Shown here one piece after another: positions 14,588 through 32,738 of a DNA stretch of 35,025 bases. Below the pieces are notes generated by a model. It did no database searches. It was given only the letters and a program-made list of their open reading frames with translations, and was not told where the DNA came from. Origin of the DNA: a virus; IMG/VR virus record IMGVR_UViG_3300005264_000085, positions 1 to 35,025 of that record; one strand, 5' to 3'. Every line of letters begins with the position of its first letter. The first letter of the stretch is position 1. A program made the translations under genes and the position numbers.

Positions 14588-14619
14588 CAAATATATGAAT
14601 TATTTTTTAATATACCAAA
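14588..14619 (-). promoter_or_regulatory. Host-type (Bacteroidota) promoter, minus strand
   Basis: On the minus strand TTTG (14619-14616), a 20-nt spacer, then TATATTTG (14595-14588). This fits the Bacteroidota -33/-7 consensus TTTG / TAnnTTTG with the same spacing as at 28280, 29755, 31260 and 20719. It drives the gene at 14261-14542. Confidence 0.7.
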
Positions 14620-15358: not shown

Positions 15359-16129
15359 TCATTTATTTAGAGGTGCTAATAACCTAAAATCACTTCTTAA
15401 ATTATTAGCATATTGTTTATATTTATCGTTTAGTTCTTCCCAAGTTTCAAACTTCATTATTTCATCATACAATGTTATTGTATTATATTTTTCATCTAAA
15501 TTTATATAATCAATTATATAACCACATTTAGCAATTTGAATTCCATAGTGAGCAATCCTTAAACTATGAAACATTGATTTTTTGCCGATATAATGATGTT
15601 CATTTTTTATTTTTTTCTTTGCTTTTACAAATGAATTACTACACACACCAGAAATATAACGTCTTAATAAATCTAAATCCAAGTTAAAATGTTTTTTATA
15701 ATCAATAGTTTCTTTCAACTTATATTTATCATCTAAAAATATACATTCCAATACATCAATATTATGTAAATTTATTTTTTCGATAAATTCATGATGACTA
15801 TATATTGTTGCTTGTATTTTTAAAGTTTCATTACACACACCATCTGCTTGTTCGTTGTTTGCAACATCAACTTTGTTTCGATTATTAATATCTAATATTT
15901 CGTTATTATCATTTTTATATATAATAATATAATCATAATCTGAATTTCCATTATATGTTTGATATACACGTGAACCAAACATATAACAATTGATTATTTT
16001 ATCTTCATCTAATAACAATGATTTTGCCAATATGGATAAACGTACTGTTTTTATTGCATCTTTATATGTATTATTTTTTTGTCTCAATTTTGCATTTTCA
16101 TACCAACTTGATTTTGGATATTTTTTCAT
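15359..16129 (-). CDS. Nucleotidyltransferase (DNA polymerase beta superfamily)
   Basis: A 256-aa protein. FGSRVYQTYNGNSDYDYIII at residues 51-70 is the Pol-beta nucleotidyltransferase signature: G52-S53, then D64 and D66 as the metal-binding pair. The third acidic residue may be in KIQATIYS or nearby, not clearly seen. The C-terminal helices (150-240) are typical of the long phage members. Members transfer a nucleotide to tRNA, protein or small molecules; phage copies are mostly uncharacterised. It is one of four such folds in this window (with 31314, 32742, 33660). Confidence 0.75.
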   Translation of the reverse strand: MKKYPKSSWYENAKLRQKNNTYKDAIKTVRLSILAKSLLLDEDKIINCYMFGSRVYQTYNGNSDYDYIIIYKNDNNEILDINNRNKVDVANNEQADGVCNETLKIQATIYSHHEFIEKINLHNIDVLECIFLDDKYKLKETIDYKKHFNLDLDLLRRYISGVCSNSFVKAKKKIKNEHHYIGKKSMFHSLRIAHYGIQIAKCGYIIDYINLDEKYNTITLYDEIMKFETWEELNDKYKQYANNLRSDFRLLAPLNK

Positions 16130-20718: not shown

Positions 20719-20750
20719 CAAAGATAAATATTATTATGTTAATAAGCAAA
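20719..20750 (-). promoter_or_regulatory. Host-type (Bacteroidota) promoter, minus strand
   Basis: Minus-strand TTTG (20750-20747), 20-nt spacer, TATCTTTG (20726-20719), matching TTTG-N20-TAnnTTTG. The next ATG is at 20704. Confidence 0.65.
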
Positions 20751-21277: not shown

Positions 21278-21397
21278 TTATTTTATTATATCAAAATATT
21301 CATTAATTTTATTATCATCAACATAAACTGAATAATGATAATCTTTTGGTATTAACATAAATTTATTTTTAAGTTCTTTTATGTATTTTTTACCCAT
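21278..21397 (-). CDS. Small hypothetical protein (39 aa)
   Basis: Reads MGKKYIKELKNKFMLIPKDY then HYSVYVDDNKINEYFDIIK. The ATG is 8 nt inside the end of the 2H phosphoesterase gene and the stop is 4 nt before the methyltransferase ATG. The tight linkage on both sides supports a real small gene. Confidence 0.45.
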   Translation of the reverse strand: MGKKYIKELKNKFMLIPKDYHYSVYVDDNKINEYFDIIK

Positions 21398-21785
21398 TCC
21401 TTTTTACATAAGCAATCGTAACATGTGGGTTATAATCAGGGAAGTCAGTTTGATAATCAAACTCATTTGTTAGTGTTTTATTTATCTCATTTAATTGGTC
21501 ACTACTGACTGAGAATTTAACTACATCATAATTACCACTTTCAAAAATATCAATTGAATTAAAATTAACATTTATTTCTGATGTTGGTATTAATTGTTGT
21601 TGTAATAATTCTACGTTTGTATCATCATGCAACCCATATAAACACGTTACATGTACCTTTTCTTCAATCCCATAATCATTATTTTCATCATCATAAACAT
21701 CTTCTTCTGATATTAGTGTTGTTGTATATTCATTCCATTTTGGAATATCAAACCTAAGCATTAAGCATCCTTTGTAATTTTTCAT
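21390..21785 (-). CDS. 2H phosphoesterase (LigT-like)
   Basis: A 131-aa protein with two H-x-T motifs, VHVTCLYG (H45, T47) and PHVTIAYVK (H121, T123), the defining pair of the 2H phosphoesterase superfamily, at usual spacing for a single compact domain. Members cleave 2',3'-cyclic phosphates in RNA or cyclic nucleotides; the phage T4 anti-CBASS protein Acb1 belongs to this superfamily. The family assignment is firm; the substrate (cyclic oligonucleotide or RNA end) is open. Close neighbours include methyltransferases and NADAR. Confidence 0.8.
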   Translation of the reverse strand: MKNYKGCLMLRFDIPKWNEYTTTLISEEDVYDDENNDYGIEEKVHVTCLYGLHDDTNVELLQQQLIPTSEINVNFNSIDIFESGNYDVVKFSVSSDQLNEINKTLTNEFDYQTDFPDYNPHVTIAYVKRNG

Positions 21786-22616: not shown

Positions 22617-23369
22617 TTATGTTATTATCATGTTGTTCAATCGTTCATTTATATCATTTATATATTCAAGTTCTTTTTCTATTAATATAAAATCTCTATT
22701 CAAATTGATACAAGCTACACCAGTTGTTCCACTGCCTGCGGTGTTATCAAGTACCATATCACCCTCATTTGTATGTGATTTTATTAACCATTCTATTAAT
22801 TTAACAGGTTTTTGTGTACTATGTAATTGGTCTTGTCGTCTCCATTTTTGTTGAAAAAACTGTACTGAACTTGGGTATCGAAAACCAGTATTTATTGTCT
22901 CACTTTCATTTACAACTCCCAATTTATGATTATTTTTCTTATCCCCTTTATTCGCTTTGCGTTTTCTATAATATGGTTCACCCTCTACTAGCTGAGGGTT
23001 ATACACTACTTTACCCTTACCAAAAATCAATATATTTTCATGTTTTGCTATTGGTCGATATTTTGCAGTAAATGCACTTTTACTCTTACTCCATATGATT
23101 TCATATTTATACATCTTTTCATTACTCAATGCTAATTTATATGCAAATAAACCAGTACCAAATAACGCAATCGCACCATCATCTTTAATTATTCGGTTAT
23201 AATGTTTCCATAAATCTGAAAAATTTATCACATCATCCCATTTGTTAGCTGTACTACCATAAGGTAAATCACAACATATAAAATCAATACTCTTATCTGG
23301 TATGTGTTGCATTTCTACCAAACAATCACCATGTATTACTTTACTTTTATCACTGTATTTAGTTATCAT
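22617..23369 (-). CDS. DNA methyltransferase (beta-type N4/N6)
   Basis: A 250-aa enzyme. The order is catalytic motif IV CDLPYGS (33-39) first, then a target-recognition part, then the C-terminal SAM-binding motif LDNTAGSGTTGVA (about 207-218). This is the beta arrangement (N4-cytosine or N6-adenine). STQKPVKLIEWLIK precedes the SAM motif as usual. Similar stand-alone phage enzymes give protection from host restriction. It shows close likeness to the frameshifted gene at 25179 (CDLPYG, HENILIFGKGK...). Confidence 0.85.
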   Translation of the reverse strand: MITKYSDKSKVIHGDCLVEMQHIPDKSIDFICCDLPYGSTANKWDDVINFSDLWKHYNRIIKDDGAIALFGTGLFAYKLALSNEKMYKYEIIWSKSKSAFTAKYRPIAKHENILIFGKGKVVYNPQLVEGEPYYRKRKANKGDKKNNHKLGVVNESETINTGFRYPSSVQFFQQKWRRQDQLHSTQKPVKLIEWLIKSHTNEGDMVLDNTAGSGTTGVACINLNRDFILIEKELEYINDINERLNNMIIT

Positions 23370-23499
23370 TTGTTAATTTTTCTATCAATTCTATGAAAAT
23401 GTTTTTTATCTCTGATTTGTTGCAGTTTGGTTATCGAAACATAATTCCGTCAACACTTATTAATAAAATATAATATTTTTTCATTATCAACAAAATATA

Positions 23500-23533
23500 T
23501 TTGGTAATTTAAAAAAAATGTTTTATATATTTG
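23500..23533 (+). promoter_or_regulatory. Host-type promoter, orphan
   Basis: TTTG (23500-23503), 22-nt spacer, TATATTTGTGGTAT from 23526. It faces the convergent methyltransferase gene ending at 23603. The only frame after it starts with ATT at 23538, 22 codons ending at 23606 (IGINYSLKHQKEFDTYWSNY then IN). That looks like the remains of a gene, so this is likely a promoter left behind after a deletion, or a source of a short or antisense RNA. The rest of 23370-23500 shows nothing clear. Confidence 0.5.
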
Positions 23534-23602
23534 TGGTATTGGAATTAATTACTCACTTAAACATCAAAAAGAATTTGACACATATTGGTCTAATTATATA
23601 AA

Positions 23603-24328
23603 TTAAATGTTCAATCGTTCATTGGTTATATCAATGTAATCTTGTTCTCTTTCAATTAATATGTATTGTCTATTTAATTCAATACATGCTATTGCCGTTG
23701 TACCACTACCACCAAAACAATCTAAAACTACATCATTCTCATTTGTAGTCATTTCAATCATGCGGTTTATTAATGCCTTTGGTTTTTGACTAGGATGTTT
23801 TACTCGTTCCTTTGAATTGTGTGATAATGCTGGAATATCAATCCACACATCCGATAAAGCTACACCTTGTTCTAGCATACCACCTTTTTTATATTCTTTT
23901 CTATTTCTAAGGTGTAGTTCAGGTTGTATCTTAATATTATTATATGTGAATTTATCTGATTTAGTGTAATAGCAAATTGGTTCATATCCACTAGCTAATG
24001 ATTTACCCCTTGTAGTTGATTTGTTCCTTTTTCGTTTCCATATGATTATTCGTTGTTCGGTAAAATACTTATCTAACATTAATGATATATATCTATTATA
24101 TTGCCTACCAGTAAACATCATAATAGTTCCTGTTGGTTTTAATACTCTAAATAATTCTATTATATGTTTTTCAATCCATTCCAAATAATCTTGTTCAGTT
24201 TTCCATTGGTTATCCCATTCATCTTTTAAAACTTGAAAATATGGTGGGTCAATTATTATTGAATCTATTACACACTGTTCTAATTCACGTAATTCTTCTA
24301 AACTATCTCCTGTTATTATTTTATTCAT
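23603..24328 (-). CDS. DNA methyltransferase (beta-type, DPPY)
   Basis: A 241-aa enzyme with IIIDPPYFQVL (25-35) as motif IV and LDCFGGSGTTAIA (about 205-217) as the C-terminal SAM motif; HPSQKPKALINRMIEM precedes it. The DPPY form and overall order suggest an N6-adenine or N4-cytosine methyltransferase different in sequence from its two neighbours. The central RGKSLASGYEPICYY segment is in the target-recognition area. No restriction partner is seen. Confidence 0.85.
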   Translation of the reverse strand: MNKIITGDSLEELRELEQCVIDSIIIDPPYFQVLKDEWDNQWKTEQDYLEWIEKHIIELFRVLKPTGTIMMFTGRQYNRYISLMLDKYFTEQRIIIWKRKRNKSTTRGKSLASGYEPICYYTKSDKFTYNNIKIQPELHLRNRKEYKKGGMLEQGVALSDVWIDIPALSHNSKERVKHPSQKPKALINRMIEMTTNENDVVLDCFGGSGTTAIACIELNRQYILIEREQDYIDITNERLNI

Positions 24329-24365
24329 GTTGAATTATAATATATTTTTGTTACTTATTACTATT

Positions 24366-25176
24366 TTAATTTATTTTTATGTCAAAACTATTAATTAATT
24401 TCATATTATGCTTACTAATATTTTCTAATGTGTAATAACTACCTTTTAAGTTAACGTCTTTTACCCACTTAATAACCATTTTATCGGTTTTTATTTCATA
24501 TAAATCATAAGTAAGTATGTCATTAATTAACAACATATCAATTCTTTCATCTGGTATTTGGTCAACTAACTTATTAGTTAAAATTAAATAGTATTTTTTA
24601 TCATCAAAACAATATATCCTACTTGGGTAGTTAAACATATTATTCATTGATTTTGGTATAAGACCACGTTTTAATATTTTGTTTCTATATAACTTTGGAC
24701 TTACATGATACAATTTATCTTTTATTGGTGAAAACAAATCAAACTTAGGTTCAAGTATCATTGTCAATTGCATTATATCATCCATTAAAGGTAACTCAGA
24801 AAAGTCAGTTATTATTTTAGGTTTAAAGTTATTTTTCTCTGTTATATAATGATAACCTGCGACATACCAACCAAACACAATTAAACTCTTTTTAAACTTC
24901 TTATCACTAACTAAACTTAATTCATTCTTATTAGGATGTAATCCATTTTTGATATTAATGACAATCTTATCAGTTCCAATAATGTTAAAATTATTTACAT
25001 GATATACACGTTTTAATTGTGATACAACTGTATTGATTCTATAACTAACAATCAAACCTTCATACAACATATCAATATGCTCTTTATGTGCCAAACTTAA
25101 TAATATGTCATCGCTGAATATATCCATATTAGGATTACGTTGTAAATATTCTTTTTTGCTTTGTTGTTTTAATCAT
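24366..25176 (-). CDS. ART-like protein (YHVSP...RIY motif family), start region frameshifted
   Basis: From ATG 25127 it gives 253 aa. Residues about 138-175 read KLYHVSPKLYRNKILKRGLI then PKSMNNMFNYPSRIYCF. A His in a short strand, then I-L-x-x-G-L and a second strand with Tyr recalls the ADP-ribosyltransferase/KptA fold (H...Y), though the third acidic residue is not certain. The coding frame seems to extend upstream (KKEYLQRNPN before the Met), and an ATG at 25176, 2 nt after the upstream stop, reaches it if one A is removed from the A6 run at 25157-25152. The N-terminal 120 aa is unrecognised. A remnant of the same family lies at 10561. Confidence 0.5.
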
Positions 25177-25178
25177 AA

Positions 25179-25918
25179 TTATTGTGTTGTTATAATATTA
25201 GACAATTTAGTACTAGCAATATCAAAATATTGAGCATCCATTTCAATGCCAATAAATTTACGGTTTAATTTCACACAAGCAACACCAGTTGTTCCAACAC
25301 CCATCGTATTATCTAATACAACATCACCTTCATTTGTATAAGTTTTTACTAAATATTCCATTAATTCTAATGGTTTTTCAGTTGGTGTTGTTTTGATTTT
25401 TGATTTGCATTACTTATTTCTATAATTGATGTTGGGTAATATTCATTATTAAAACTAACAGTTTCAGCATGTTTACCATAAGTACCCTTATTGCCACCAA
25501 CATACCCTCCTTTTTTACGTGGTTTCCCTCTTGTTACTTTTATTGGATTATATGTTATTTTACCTTTGCCGAAAATTAATATATCTTCATGTTGTCTTAA
25601 CGGCATAATCTTAGCATTCAAAAACCCAGTAGAGCTTTTTTTATTCCATATTAATTTATATTTAAACATTTTAGGATTACTCATCATCAAAGAACCTGTA
25701 AATATGCCATCTGAATGTAATACTATTGCACCACTTTTTTTAATTATTCGTTTATATTGCAACCACAGTTTATCTAAATCAATAACACTATCCCATTTAT
25801 TTTGGGTAGTACCATAAGGCAAATCACATATTATTGCATCAATACTATTATCAGCAATTTGTGGCATTATAACCAAACAATCATCATTATATATTTGTAT
25901 ATCTTTTAAATCACTCAT
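25179..25918 (-). pseudogene. DNA methyltransferase (beta-type), frameshifted
   Basis: Two frames together make one enzyme. The first (25918-25367) has CDLPYGTTQNKW (31-42) and HEDILIFGKGK, and ends wrongly with KQHQLKNH. The second (read from about 25400 to 25179) continues TTPTEKPLELMEYLVKTYTN and LDNTMGVGTTGVACVKLN. Adding one A to the A4 run (25394-25391) or the A5 run (25401-25397) restores a single frame of about 246 aa. The SAM motif has V where its paralogue at 22617 has S (GVGTT versus GSGTT). It may be inactive, a read error, or produced by slippage. Confidence 0.7.
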
Positions 25919-25920
25919 AA

Positions 25921-26466
25921 TTATTGTGTTGTAGTTAATATTATTTTACCATTATATGTCTCAGTTCTATCTGTAATATATTCAACATATAATTCATTGT
26001 TTTTATTCAATTGACTATAATTATCAAACCACACCAATTTAACATCTTGTTTATTTACATGATAACCACCACTTAAAATATCAACACCATTAAATGAAAT
26101 ACCTTGTTGTTTATTTGATGTATATTGTGGTTTTAAATATGATGGTAAAGCATCAATTGTAGTTCGTAATATCCGAAACAAACAATCAGTTCTAGGTGAT
26201 GAATTAATTATGATTTTATCATCTGGCTTACATACAAATAAAGCAAAATGTAATACATACAAAGCTGTAATAGTAGTTAATCCCACTTGTCTATCACCAT
26301 GTATAGTGGTAAACTCGTTAGTTTTAAATTTAGATAATACTTCTTTTTGAAAATCTCTTAATTGGATTAATTGTAATTCGTTTTTTCCAATTTGCCGTGA
26401 TACAACCATACAATATGTTTCTATAAAATATTGTATATCATTTTTACATTTATTATATTCTGTCAT
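25921..26466 (-). CDS. Stand-alone terminase-like ATPase domain with degenerate motifs
   Basis: A 181-aa protein that follows the N-terminal ATPase half of T4 gp17-type large terminases: IQYFIETYCMVV, LRDFQKEVLSKF, then GDRQVGLTTITALYVLHFAL (57-76), and IIINSSPR, LPSYLKPQ, SFNGVDILSGG, and LVWFDNYSQLN (144-154), ending at KIILTTTQ. Walker A has L63 where the lysine should be (RQ-x-G-K-T/S), and Walker B has D-N in place of D-E. The nuclease half is absent. Not a working packaging motor; it could be a dominant interfering subunit, a regulator, or a truncated relic. It lies 2 nt upstream of the frameshifted methyltransferase. Confidence 0.6.
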   Translation of the reverse strand: MTEYNKCKNDIQYFIETYCMVVSRQIGKNELQLIQLRDFQKEVLSKFKTNEFTTIHGDRQVGLTTITALYVLHFALFVCKPDDKIIINSSPRTDCLFRILRTTIDALPSYLKPQYTSNKQQGISFNGVDILSGGYHVNKQDVKLVWFDNYSQLNKNNELYVEYITDRTETYNGKIILTTTQ

Positions 26467-26485: not shown

Positions 26486-28069
26486 TTATTTTAATTTCAA
26501 TAATGGTATTTCTAGTTTTTCAAACACACCTTTATATATGCTTTCAAATAAAGGCAAATCACTTGGGTGCATAGCAAAGCTATCATGTACAGTATAAAAT
26601 GGGTGTTCACTTTGTTCAGCCATTCCTTTACCTACCATATCAATCATAACTCTACTTTCAAATCTTTGACACATTTTAGGTATCGTTTTTTTATCATAAC
26701 CATTTAATTTACCACAAATTTCAATTATATTTGGTATAACCTTATTATAATCGTCTTTATCAGGCTTAAATTCAAACCATTTGCTGAATAACATCTTGAA
26801 CATAAAGCTTTTAGCATCTTTCCGATTAACATTCATTTCACTACCTATCCATTCATATAATGTACCGTTTTCAGCTCGCTTGCAAAATTCAACTACATCT
26901 GGTTTATTCTTTATTTTTTGTAACTTTTTTATATCACCACTAAATTCAGGTAATATTCTAGTACTTTGTTCAGGATAACGTATAATAGTAGCCAATATAA
27001 CCATCTGACTATTAACTATATCACGTTCTACTGGTCTTTCACCTGCAATTAAAACATAATCCCTCATTTTCTTAGTAGTATTTGTAAATGGACTATGGAA
27101 ACGTTCACCAAACACATCTTTACCATTAAAATAATAACCACGTTCTTTATGATTTTTCATTACATCTACAAATTCACTTAAATTTAAAGTTTCTTTGTCA
27201 TTTTCTTTAGCAATTATTATTTCTTCTTTATCTTCCTTATCCTCAACATCATAGTACTCATCTAAATGGTCTTTAAAATACATTTCAAAAGCATGTAAGT
27301 CAACATTTGGCAAAAGTGTTACAACATGGTCAATCATTTTTTGTCTGTGTTCTGGTAAACCTTGTTTTGCTTTTTCTATTATCTTAATTTTATAATCTAA
27401 GAACCTTTTAATCAAGTACTTAGACTCTATCTTCTTTCTTGTGTAGTATTTTCCTTCTTCATTTTTAACCATGTATTTGTCGGCTATCTTAAATGACTTT
27501 GCTTTACTTCTACCAGTTTTAGTTCCATTGTCATAATTAAAATAAAAGTGATTATCAGTTTCAATAAAACCACTATCCAAAAAAGCAGTTAAAAGTGGTG
27601 CATATTTTTGATGTTGTATCCATGTTCGCCATTCAGTTGCAGGTATTTGAACCATGTGATTATCAGATACATACATCTTATATTTCTTCTTACCACCATA
27701 AGTCTTTTTATAATAACTGATTTTAGTCAAAATAATACTAAAAACCAATTTAGCTTCTTCCAAATTAATAAAATACGAAGGTTTATCATACTTAACAATA
27801 TAAGCATTAATAGAATCTAAAATCATTTGGTCTGAAATAGTATTTAAAACAAGAATATCACTATCAATAAAATCTTTAAATTGAATAGAAACAGTTTTAA
27901 TATAAGAATCAATAGTAGAATAAGCATTAGGATTAAGATAATTAGAATATTTATAATTAGTATTAGAATCATAATATTTATTTACATAAGTATCATATAA
28001 AACATTAGATTCAGATACTAAATCATTAGTAATTATATCATTATATTCAAGATTATTATAAATTATCAT
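26486..28069 (-). CDS. Single-subunit (family A-like) polymerase-motif protein, uncharacterised
   Basis: A 527-aa protein. The second half has an ordered set like family A DNA polymerases and T7-type RNA polymerases: GERFHSPFTNTTKKMRDYVL (321-340), motif A-like VERDIVNSQMVILATII (D350), a motif B-like helix RKDAKSFMFKMLFSKW (416-431), then CQRFESRVMIDMVG (467-480), and motif C-like YTVHDSFAMH (492-501) with H495-D496. I recall hypothetical proteins with the same R-x-H-S / D-I-x-N-S-Q / H-D-S signature in Bacteroidota mobile elements. The first 300 residues are charged, helical and unrecognised. The role (primer-extending polymerase, RNA polymerase or primase) is unknown. It starts with a 35-nt leader after a late-type motif. 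Confidence 0.6.
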   Translation of the reverse strand: MIIYNNLEYNDIITNDLVSESNVLYDTYVNKYYDSNTNYKYSNYLNPNAYSTIDSYIKTVSIQFKDFIDSDILVLNTISDQMILDSINAYIVKYDKPSYFINLEEAKLVFSIILTKISYYKKTYGGKKKYKMYVSDNHMVQIPATEWRTWIQHQKYAPLLTAFLDSGFIETDNHFYFNYDNGTKTGRSKAKSFKIADKYMVKNEEGKYYTRKKIESKYLIKRFLDYKIKIIEKAKQGLPEHRQKMIDHVVTLLPNVDLHAFEMYFKDHLDEYYDVEDKEDKEEIIIAKENDKETLNLSEFVDVMKNHKERGYYFNGKDVFGERFHSPFTNTTKKMRDYVLIAGERPVERDIVNSQMVILATIIRYPEQSTRILPEFSGDIKKLQKIKNKPDVVEFCKRAENGTLYEWIGSEMNVNRKDAKSFMFKMLFSKWFEFKPDKDDYNKVIPNIIEICGKLNGYDKKTIPKMCQRFESRVMIDMVGKGMAEQSEHPFYTVHDSFAMHPSDLPLFESIYKGVFEKLEIPLLKLK

Positions 28070-28103
28070 AGTTATTAAGTATTAATACGCCACTTTTTTA
28101 TTT

Positions 28104-28120
28104 CTTTGTTATAAATATAA
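28104..28120 (-). promoter_or_regulatory. Putative phage promoter (late-type core, minus strand)
   Basis: Minus-strand TTATATTTATAACAAAG. It shares the 12-base core TTATATTTATAA with the motifs at 22 and 16136. It lies 35 nt upstream of the polymerase-like gene start (28069), in the divergent region to the early genes. Confidence 0.45.
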
Positions 28121-28248
28121 TAAAAAATATTTTAAAATAAAAATTTAACGTTTTTTGAATAAATATAAATATATTACAAATGATTTTAAATGTGAATAAG
28201 TACATTATTAAATAACACATAAAATAATATGAATAACAAAACACCTAT

Positions 28249-28267
28249 ATTATCATTTAATGATAAT
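28249..28267. repeat. 9-bp palindrome next to an early promoter
   Basis: ATTATCATT-T-AATGATAAT, a perfect inverted repeat 12 nt upstream of the TTTG at 28280. Its place fits an operator or upstream activator site for the early promoter in the 246-bp divergent region 28070-28315. The region holds no other clear signals. Confidence 0.4.
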
Positions 28268-28279
28268 TAAAAAAATAAA

Positions 28280-28311
28280 TTTGGTTAGTTAAAATAAATT
28301 TAGTATATTTG
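28280..28311 (+). promoter_or_regulatory. Host-type (Bacteroidota) early promoter
   Basis: TTTG (28280-28283), 20-nt spacer, TATATTTG (28304-28311), then AGGT and ATG at 28316. The start codon would fall at or next to the transcription start, so the message is predicted to be leaderless. Confidence 0.75.
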
Positions 28312-28315
28312 AGGT

Positions 28316-29754: not shown

Positions 29755-29786
29755 TTTGGTTATTAAAAATAAGTTTTATATATTTG
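29755..29786 (+). promoter_or_regulatory. Host-type (Bacteroidota) early promoter
   Basis: TTTG (29755-29758), 20-nt spacer, TATATTTG (29779-29786), then TGGTAT as at 23526. About 40 nt of leader precede the ATG at 29826. Confidence 0.75.
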
Positions 29787-31259: not shown

Positions 31260-31291
31260 TTTGGTTAATTCAATTATTATGACTATTTTTG
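31260..31291 (+). promoter_or_regulatory. Host-type (Bacteroidota) early promoter
   Basis: TTTG (31260-31263), 20-nt spacer, TATTTTTG (31284-31291). It drives the gene at 31314 and probably the six-gene operon up to 34641. Confidence 0.7.
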
Positions 31292-31313: not shown

Positions 31314-32738
31314 ATGAAAATTAAGGACTTTGTTATAAAATATGATGTTACTATCAATGGTGATGAAGAATATTTAGATTATGATTTATTATTAGTAGCT
31401 GTTGTAGGCTCAGTATCGTATGGTACAAATACACCTACATCCGATATTGATTATAAAGGGATATTTATATCACCACACTCAAATTTAATGGGTTTAAACT
31501 CAAACTATATTCCTCAAATTAATTTTGAAAATAATGATATTGTATTTTATGAAATTGGTAGATTTATGGAATTATTGGCAATTAGTGATTTTGGTATGTT
31601 AGAACTCATACATGCTGATACTCACTTAATATATAGACATTCAATGTTAGATGAATTAATCAAAAATAGAAACAAATTTATCACTAAACAATGTAAAAAT
31701 CGTGTTGGTGGTTATGCAATTGGTCAGATTAATAAAGCAAAAGGTCAAGATAAATTTCAAAATTGGAATAAAAATAAAACCATAAGAAAGAGCCCATTAG
31801 ATTTTATTACTGTATATGAGGGTAAAACCAAGCAACCACTAACAACCTATCTATCAGAAAATAAAATAAATCAAAAAGATTGTGGATTAGTTCAAGTACC
31901 ACATACTTATGATAAATTAATTGATTTTATGACATACCATAACGAAGATAAAGGTAAATGGTATTCATTAAGTTTTCACATTAGTAAGTTATTACAAAGT
32001 TTAGCTAAATATGGTGTTATTAATTTAGATGCTACTCAGAACGCAGTTAACAATAAGCTATACCACATAGAAACGATTTTAACTACCATTAAAGCTAATA
32101 AAAATAACATTACATATAAACAAGTGAATGATTTAAGTAATGCCTATAAGCAGGTATTACAGCCTTTTTATAAAGCAAATAAAATAGATGATAAATATAA
32201 ATATTTAATGACTTATGCCTTGTTTTATGATAAAGAAGTAGTTGTTGGTAAATATAAAGGAATAGTCAAAGAATATGATGACGGAACATTTCCAAGTAAT
32301 GAATTAAGAATGAGTAATATATCAAAAACTGAACAATTTAAAAAGATTGTTAGTTATGATATGAATGCTTATTCAACACATTGTAAAGATTATGGTAATT
32401 ACCAAACATGGTTAAAAGAGAGAAATGAACAACGATGGGTAGATAATAACTCACATAAACAATTGTTGGACGGCAAAAATATGGGTCATTGTGTTAGGTT
32501 ATTAACAATAAGTAAAGAGATAGCACAAGGCAAAGGTTTGATTTTGCATAGACCAGATAGAGATTACTTATTAAGTATTAGGAGAGGTGAGGTTGATTTA
32601 CAAACTTTAATTGAAACAAGTAAAAAAGAAATTAAAGAAATTGACTTGCTATATAAAGACAGTAAAATCGCAGATGCAATTGATATAAATTATGTTAATG
32701 AATTATTAGTGAAAATTAGAAATAACTATTATATATAA
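31314..32738 (+). CDS. Large nucleotidyltransferase (Pol-beta superfamily)
   Basis: A 474-aa protein. VVGSVSYGTNTPTSDIDYKG (31-49) is the nucleotidyltransferase signature with G32-S33 and the acidic pair D44, D46. VGGYAIGQINKAKGQDKFQN (about 130-150) is a conserved helix of this phage-associated long form, and a helical C-terminal half follows. These predicted enzymes are common in large phages and in bacterial genomes; activity and target are not known. First gene of the last early operon. Confidence 0.75.
   Translation: MKIKDFVIKYDVTINGDEEYLDYDLLLVAVVGSVSYGTNTPTSDIDYKGIFISPHSNLMGLNSNYIPQINFENNDIVFYEIGRFMELLAISDFGMLELIHADTHLIYRHSMLDELIKNRNKFITKQCKNRVGGYAIGQINKAKGQDKFQNWNKNKTIRKSPLDFITVYEGKTKQPLTTYLSENKINQKDCGLVQVPHTYDKLIDFMTYHNEDKGKWYSLSFHISKLLQSLAKYGVINLDATQNAVNNKLYHIETILTTIKANKNNITYKQVNDLSNAYKQVLQPFYKANKIDDKYKYLMTYALFYDKEVVVGKYKGIVKEYDDGTFPSNELRMSNISKTEQFKKIVSYDMNAYSTHCKDYGNYQTWLKERNEQRWVDNNSHKQLLDGKNMGHCVRLLTISKEIAQGKGLILHRPDRDYLLSIRRGEVDLQTLIETSKKEIKEIDLLYKDSKIADAIDINYVNELLVKIRNNYYI

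Follow-up and report, generated by a model that had tools for sequence, protein, structure and literature searches.

The window analysed here is an IMG/VR viral contig of 35,025 bp. Its minus strand carries an open reading frame at positions 26486–28069 that encodes 527 amino acids and is unique within the contig. The product contains the motifs R323-F-H325-S326, D350-I-V-N-S-Q355 and V494-H-D-S497, and its helix 416–431 reads R416-x3-K420-x3-F424-x3-F428; all motif positions claimed in an earlier note on this DNA lie at the residues given there. The closest known kinds of protein are the TV-Pol (2008) and divPolA2 (2024) polymerases, after which the gene is named in the following list, where counts refer to an alignment of 40 relatives.

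26486..28069, minus strand: probable TV-Pol/divPolA2-like palm polymerase gene, 527 aa (open reading frame, family alignment, AlphaFold2, Foldseek and profile–profile comparison)
27422..27835, minus strand: N-terminal part, residues ~79–216, with a winged-helix-like pattern (AlphaFold2 secondary structure, conserved columns)
27062..27109, minus strand: G321-x-R323-x-H325-S region to R336 (R323 in 40/40, R336 in 39/40, alignment to the GR motif of PolA)
27005..27022, minus strand: motif A, D350-I-V-N-S-Q355, with the putative first catalytic Asp (D350 and Q355 in 40/40, register of the PolA profile)
26783..26824, minus strand: motif B (fingers), R416-x3-K420-x3-F424-x3-F428 (aligned to R-x3-K-x7-YG of PolA)
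26657..26668, minus strand: Q468-x-x-E471 motif (invariant in the family, present in TV-Pol-type proteins)
26579..26590, minus strand: motif C, V494-H495-D496-S497, with the putative second catalytic Asp in a β-hairpin (conservation and predicted strands)
22617..25918, minus strand: block of genes downstream on the same strand, among them N4/N6 DNA methyltransferases
28281–28311, 29756–29786 and 31261–31291, plus strand; 14588–14618 and 20719–20749, minus strand: promoter-like TTG-N20-TAnnTTTG sites

Directly downstream of the polymerase gene, at 25921–26466 on the minus strand, lies a 181-aa piece that matches phrog_5989 (E = 6e-27) and resembles the N-terminal ATPase part of a large terminase subunit; its Walker A motif is altered (GDRQVGLTT). 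Within the methyltransferase block, one DNA methyltransferase is split over two adjacent minus-strand frames (25367–25918 and 25179–25361), and two intact paralogues occupy 22617–23369 and 23603–24328. In the Pontibacter records L010 and L011, too, the polymerase gene is followed by a methyltransferase of this kind. Elsewhere in the window, an intein that includes an HNH endonuclease region (residues about 110–512) interrupts a T4-type portal protein gene (PF07230; 3865–6882, plus strand). An RNA repair set is suggested by two RlaP-like nucleotidyltransferases (phrog_388) together with an RNA ligase-like protein; the three genes lie at 31314–32738 (plus), 15359–16129 (minus) and 21390–21785 (minus).

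A late-type motif had been claimed upstream of the gene in the earlier note, which did not name it. Tested as the T4-type TATAAATA, this claim found no support: the motif occurs at chance level in the AT-rich window (25 copies versus 19.8 expected, with 25 reached in 14 of 100 shuffles), and the gene's strand has no copy within the upstream intergenic region, 28070–28315. The hint drawn from such a motif, that the gene is not a standard early replication gene, falls with it. The sequence TTG-N20-TAnnTTTG, the promoter form of Bacteroidota, occurs 7 times in the window versus 1.6 expected, a count reached in none of 100 shuffles. Several of these sites lie just upstream of open reading frames, and the three on the plus strand begin with TTGGTTA. 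Since the nearest cellular relatives of the window protein belong to Bacteroidota and this promoter form is in excess, the phage host is likely a member of Bacteroidota.

Single-sequence searches with the window protein against Pfam, PHROGs, NCBIfam, PDB sequences and plasmids gave no useful match. Pfam PDZ_1 and NCBIfam MAD7 matches were both under the cut-off, and phmmer against the PDB yielded nothing beyond a carrier protein (E = 2) that is unrelated. Peptide-pattern scans from the window protein alone detected no relatives in viral contigs or genome contigs, and a 7-sequence alignment was too diverse for use as a search pattern. A single-sequence search of a phage collection yielded two matches, each in an uncultured phage (595 and 636 kb) and spanning residues 313–497. 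Alignment-based scans started from these two recovered relatives in viral contigs, in Pontibacter and Rufibacter genomes and in metagenome-assembled genomes (one Planctomycetales, one Pirellula and one Akkermansiaceae). Further relatives lie in phages of 634, 642 and 735 kb and on one Hymenobacter plasmid. In total, at least 63 distinct proteins were collected, the window protein included. The family thus extends from phages as large as 735 kb to Planctomycetota and to prophages and plasmids of Hymenobacteraceae.

The window protein shares at most 30% identity with any relative. In the phylogenetic tree it groups with the large-phage proteins L018, L021 and L084 (support 98/96) on a long branch of 1.42 changes per site, and this group joins the Hymenobacteraceae prophage proteins (support 100/100). 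The clade lacks a Pfam or NCBIfam model, and its link to a single PHROG is weak at best. Although described as uncharacterised in the earlier note, the protein is not isolated, being one of a family that profiles tie to TV-Pol and divPolA2.

An alignment of 40 diverse relatives, drawn from viral contigs, large phages and bacterial genomes, showed ten residues without variation (R323, D350, Q355, Y405, K420, P446, Q468, E471, H495 and D496), so the motif set is not a chance arrangement. Position 416 is R or K in all 40 proteins, position 428 is F in 36 and Y in four, and S497 is kept in 34. AlphaFold2, run with 39 sequences, gave a confident model (mean pLDDT 83, pTM 0.78) in which the palm, like most of residues 340–527, reaches pLDDT 90–98. 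In this model, strand 347–349 runs straight into D350, and D496 is placed between strands 492–494 and 497–500; this strand and hairpin setting is, as modelled, the layout of a palm domain. A predicted structure without a palm, which the earlier note had named as an outcome that would refute its reading, thus did not arise. Foldseek searches against the PDB agreed: the best matches were Pol theta, KlenTaq, POLRMT and the yeast mitochondrial RNA polymerase (probability 0.96–0.99 for the first three), and the first 19 rows were all family A or single-subunit RNA polymerases, with modest E-values (0.011 and up) and low TM-scores. In a viral structure library, a phage protein ranked first (E = 2e-15), ahead of a 'putative DNA polymerase I' (3e-11) and of divPolA2-type proteins.

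The first 300 residues, described in the earlier note as not recognisable, are partly conserved in the family. This conservation begins at about residue 78, and the predicted elements (helices 103–124, 144–150 and 153–166, and a β-hairpin 169–171/191–195) form a helix-helix-helix-hairpin pattern that is winged-helix-like, while residues 1–66 are mostly of low confidence. Very weak winged-helix Pfam matches were found in two other family members. Helices are also predicted at 217–235 and 240–255; the TV-Pol thumb is a two-helix coiled coil. The window protein shows no sign of a nuclease domain.

Profile–profile comparison with hhalign used the 40-member family profile as query and small profiles as targets, because single sequences (N4, T7 and MAP_030 alone) were uninformative. 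The family aligned to a set of seven divPolA2 proteins with 96.5% probability (E = 8e-10), or 98.2% (E = 2e-13, 365 columns) under other option settings, and to seven PolA proteins with 81.8% (E = 1e-5). The TV-Pol-type set gave 74.8% (E = 3e-5); it comprises MAP_030 of phage Ma-LMM01 and two plasmid proteins, and is taken to represent the TV-Pol family from the naming of that phage in the paper on the family (PMC2579912). The best of 54 unrelated neighbour-gene profiles reached 3.4% (E = 0.013). Because these profiles tie the family to divPolA2, PolA and TV-Pol, the reading of the protein as an orphan falls. The family A/T7-type palm core proposed in the earlier note is borne out by the model, by Foldseek and by these comparisons, all far above controls in the case of the profiles. 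Its view that the protein is neither a standard PolA nor a T7 RNA polymerase is equally sound, as no curated polymerase model matches the window protein.

The PolA register places R323 at the GR motif, D350 at the motif A Asp, R416 and K420 at the R and K of the O-helix, Q468 at the conserved Gln and H495-D496 at motif C. In the same alignment, Q355 falls at the steric-gate position E710 of Pol I, the Glu that shuts out NTPs, and F428 falls at Y766 of Pol I, the equivalent of Y639 of T7 RNA polymerase. From these two substitutions, weaker sugar discrimination would be predicted. If the palm is active, D350 and D496 would support two-metal catalysis, K420 and R416 would contact the incoming nucleotide and R323 the template, and the modelled winged-helix-like N-terminal domain would probably grip DNA.

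The 2008 description of TV-Pols (Iyer, Abhiman and Aravind, PMC2579912) proposed that they are primase-polymerases and lie close to the root of family A DNA polymerases and T7-type RNA polymerases. The window family shares with them the β-hairpin Arg, with the G321–R336 region corresponding to the Arg-bearing hairpin of TV-Pols and to the motif around R668 of Pol I, and R323 aligned to the Arg of both the PolA and TV-Pol profiles. It also shares the two palm Asp residues, the fingers RxxxK motif (R/K416-x3-K420 in all 40 relatives) and a QxxE motif, which reads LLQRIE or LLQGVE in the TV-Pol-type proteins. Both families are stand-alone without a nuclease domain, and occur in the same kinds of host: Bacteroidota, Planctomycetota, Verrucomicrobiota and phages. 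TV-Pols also have a conserved Asp in the fingers; in the window family, the fingers columns examined showed no invariant Asp, position 418 being D in nine of the 40 relatives, and the plain family HMM had no match in the Ma-LMM01 genome at E ≤ 10. The D5 helicase, whose linkage to TV-Pols is common but not universal, was found neither near the window gene nor, as D5_N, in 15 related records; since stand-alone TV-Pols have been described (PMC2579912), membership is still allowed. The window family also differs in being an extra polymerase of very large phages, whereas TV-Pols are described mainly from small elements.

The divPolA2 proteins (PHROG 4756; Vibrio phage ICP1 and Rheinheimera barbaviruses; PMC11348598) are likewise homologous at the profile level, with a palm core, no exonuclease, an unusual N-terminal domain in place of the standard thumb and a regular replicative polymerase alongside. 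They differ in their motif A, which is of the type D-[YF]-K without NSQ as against DIxNSQ in the window family, and identity in the profile alignment is only ~13%; the PHROG 4756 model had no match in the window protein and weak matches in five of 40 family members. CcPol of SCCmec, a PolA-type primase with an MP partner and the only member of the TV-Pol group for which DNA priming has been demonstrated (PMC7581432, PMC10061031), is also a small A-family polymerase of mobile elements that lacks proofreading. It is, however, recognised as PolA and retains the E710 and F762 equivalents (PMC7581432), whereas the E710 position of the window protein holds Gln, and no SSB-like protein was identified as its partner; this comparison was made by description.

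DNA polymerase I shares the catalytic residues R, D, R-x3-K, Q and HD in register, but the window protein has Q355 for E710, F428 for Y766 and S497 for the motif C Glu. PF00476 had no match in the protein or elsewhere in the window, and the exonuclease is absent. With N4 RNAP2 and T7 RNA polymerase the likeness extends to the palm fold and the HDS motif C. Searched against PDB sequences at up to E = 10, the family profile had N4 RNAP2 as its sole match (E = 0.048), and this protein ranked second in a small control set. In contrast, the family profile did not match T7 RNA polymerase, the Pfam RNA_pol model did not match the window protein, and no T7-type promoter domain was detectable.

Each of the 15 related phage records carries one copy of the polymerase gene. 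PolB matches were found in 12 of them and a full PolC with a separate PolA in two, so that 14 of 15 have PolB or PolC, the remaining record being a 56.6-kb fragment. DnaB is present in 11 records, and DnaG-like proteins of ~330 aa are supported in at least seven. Given the separate PolB or PolC, the TV-Pol-like enzyme is accessory to the main replication polymerase in the related phages; the window itself covers only 35 kb. In one large-phage clade, a separate shortened PolA gene lies directly after the TV-Pol-like gene or within ~300 bases of it, giving two neighbouring family A-type polymerases (L002:6621–7907, L006:9928–11217 and L076:9261–10565).

Taken together, the gene very probably encodes a stand-alone, accessory nucleic acid polymerase with an RRM-fold palm, of superfamily A type and belonging to the TV-Pol/divPolA2 group. 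Its role is assigned more tentatively. A primase-polymerase, or a priming or gap-filling enzyme, possibly with loose sugar selection, is the reading we favour, with somewhat less than even weight. This reading is weakened by the DnaG-like proteins of the related records and by the missing D5 helicase; the former also tell against the enzyme being the only primase of the phage. A polymerase for repair or lesion bypass, which would need a primer to extend and would not initiate, is less probable, though a real possibility. Related phages already possess a replicative polymerase, DnaB and often a DnaG-like primase, and in the three nearest relatives the gene is adjoined by genes for dihydrofolate reductase, ribonucleotide reductase, a nucleotidyltransferase and a DinG/XPD-like helicase. 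Repair is among the roles proposed for divPolA2 (PMC11348598), and CcPol without its partner performs primer extension only (PMC7581432). The same enzyme nevertheless becomes a primase with its partner, and TV-Pol-type relatives are carried by small mobile elements, for which a use in replication is more likely; no repair partner is conserved beside the gene across clades. A defence role was also considered, and no PADLOC model matched among the 40 family members.

An unlikely alternative is a single-subunit RNA polymerase serving one class of phage genes, in the way of N4 RNAP2 or of what has been suggested for divPolA2. The N4 RNAP2 match, the RNA polymerases among the fold matches, the Gln in place of the steric-gate Glu of DNA polymerases and a motif C of HDS, the T7 RNA polymerase form, rather than HDE all point this way. 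However, profile similarity is clear to PolA and divPolA2, while T7 RNA polymerase was not matched, and no promoter-recognition domain was found. The Tyr of T7 RNA polymerase at Y639 helps select NTPs, and its replacement by F428 would predict poor NTP discrimination. Members in prophages and plasmids are also hard to account for as dedicated RNA polymerases. For divPolA2 itself, the role was left between repair polymerase and RNA polymerase (PMC11348598). It is very improbable that the protein is inactive or has some other function. Slightly less probable still is that the polymerase resemblance reflects a chance motif arrangement or a decayed, inactive copy, as the lack of any curated-model match and the long branch might suggest, given that the catalytic residues are all invariant across very divergent relatives, the AlphaFold2 model is confident and separate profile comparisons agree in pointing to family A polymerases.

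What is new here is an unnamed clade with some distinctive active-site residues, within a kind of polymerase that was already known. The clade ties TV-Pol to divPolA2 at the profile level and is present in many very large phages, with one copy in each genome, in a group of which CcPol is the sole enzyme described as tested (PMC7581432). More speculatively, and with little weight attached, this widespread clade might constitute a second, self-priming polymerase system of very large phages that runs parallel to PolB or PolC with DnaG and has a relaxed choice between dNTPs and NTPs. Q355, F428 and S497 are concrete residues that would bear on whether such an enzyme with a palm core synthesises DNA, RNA or mixed primers.
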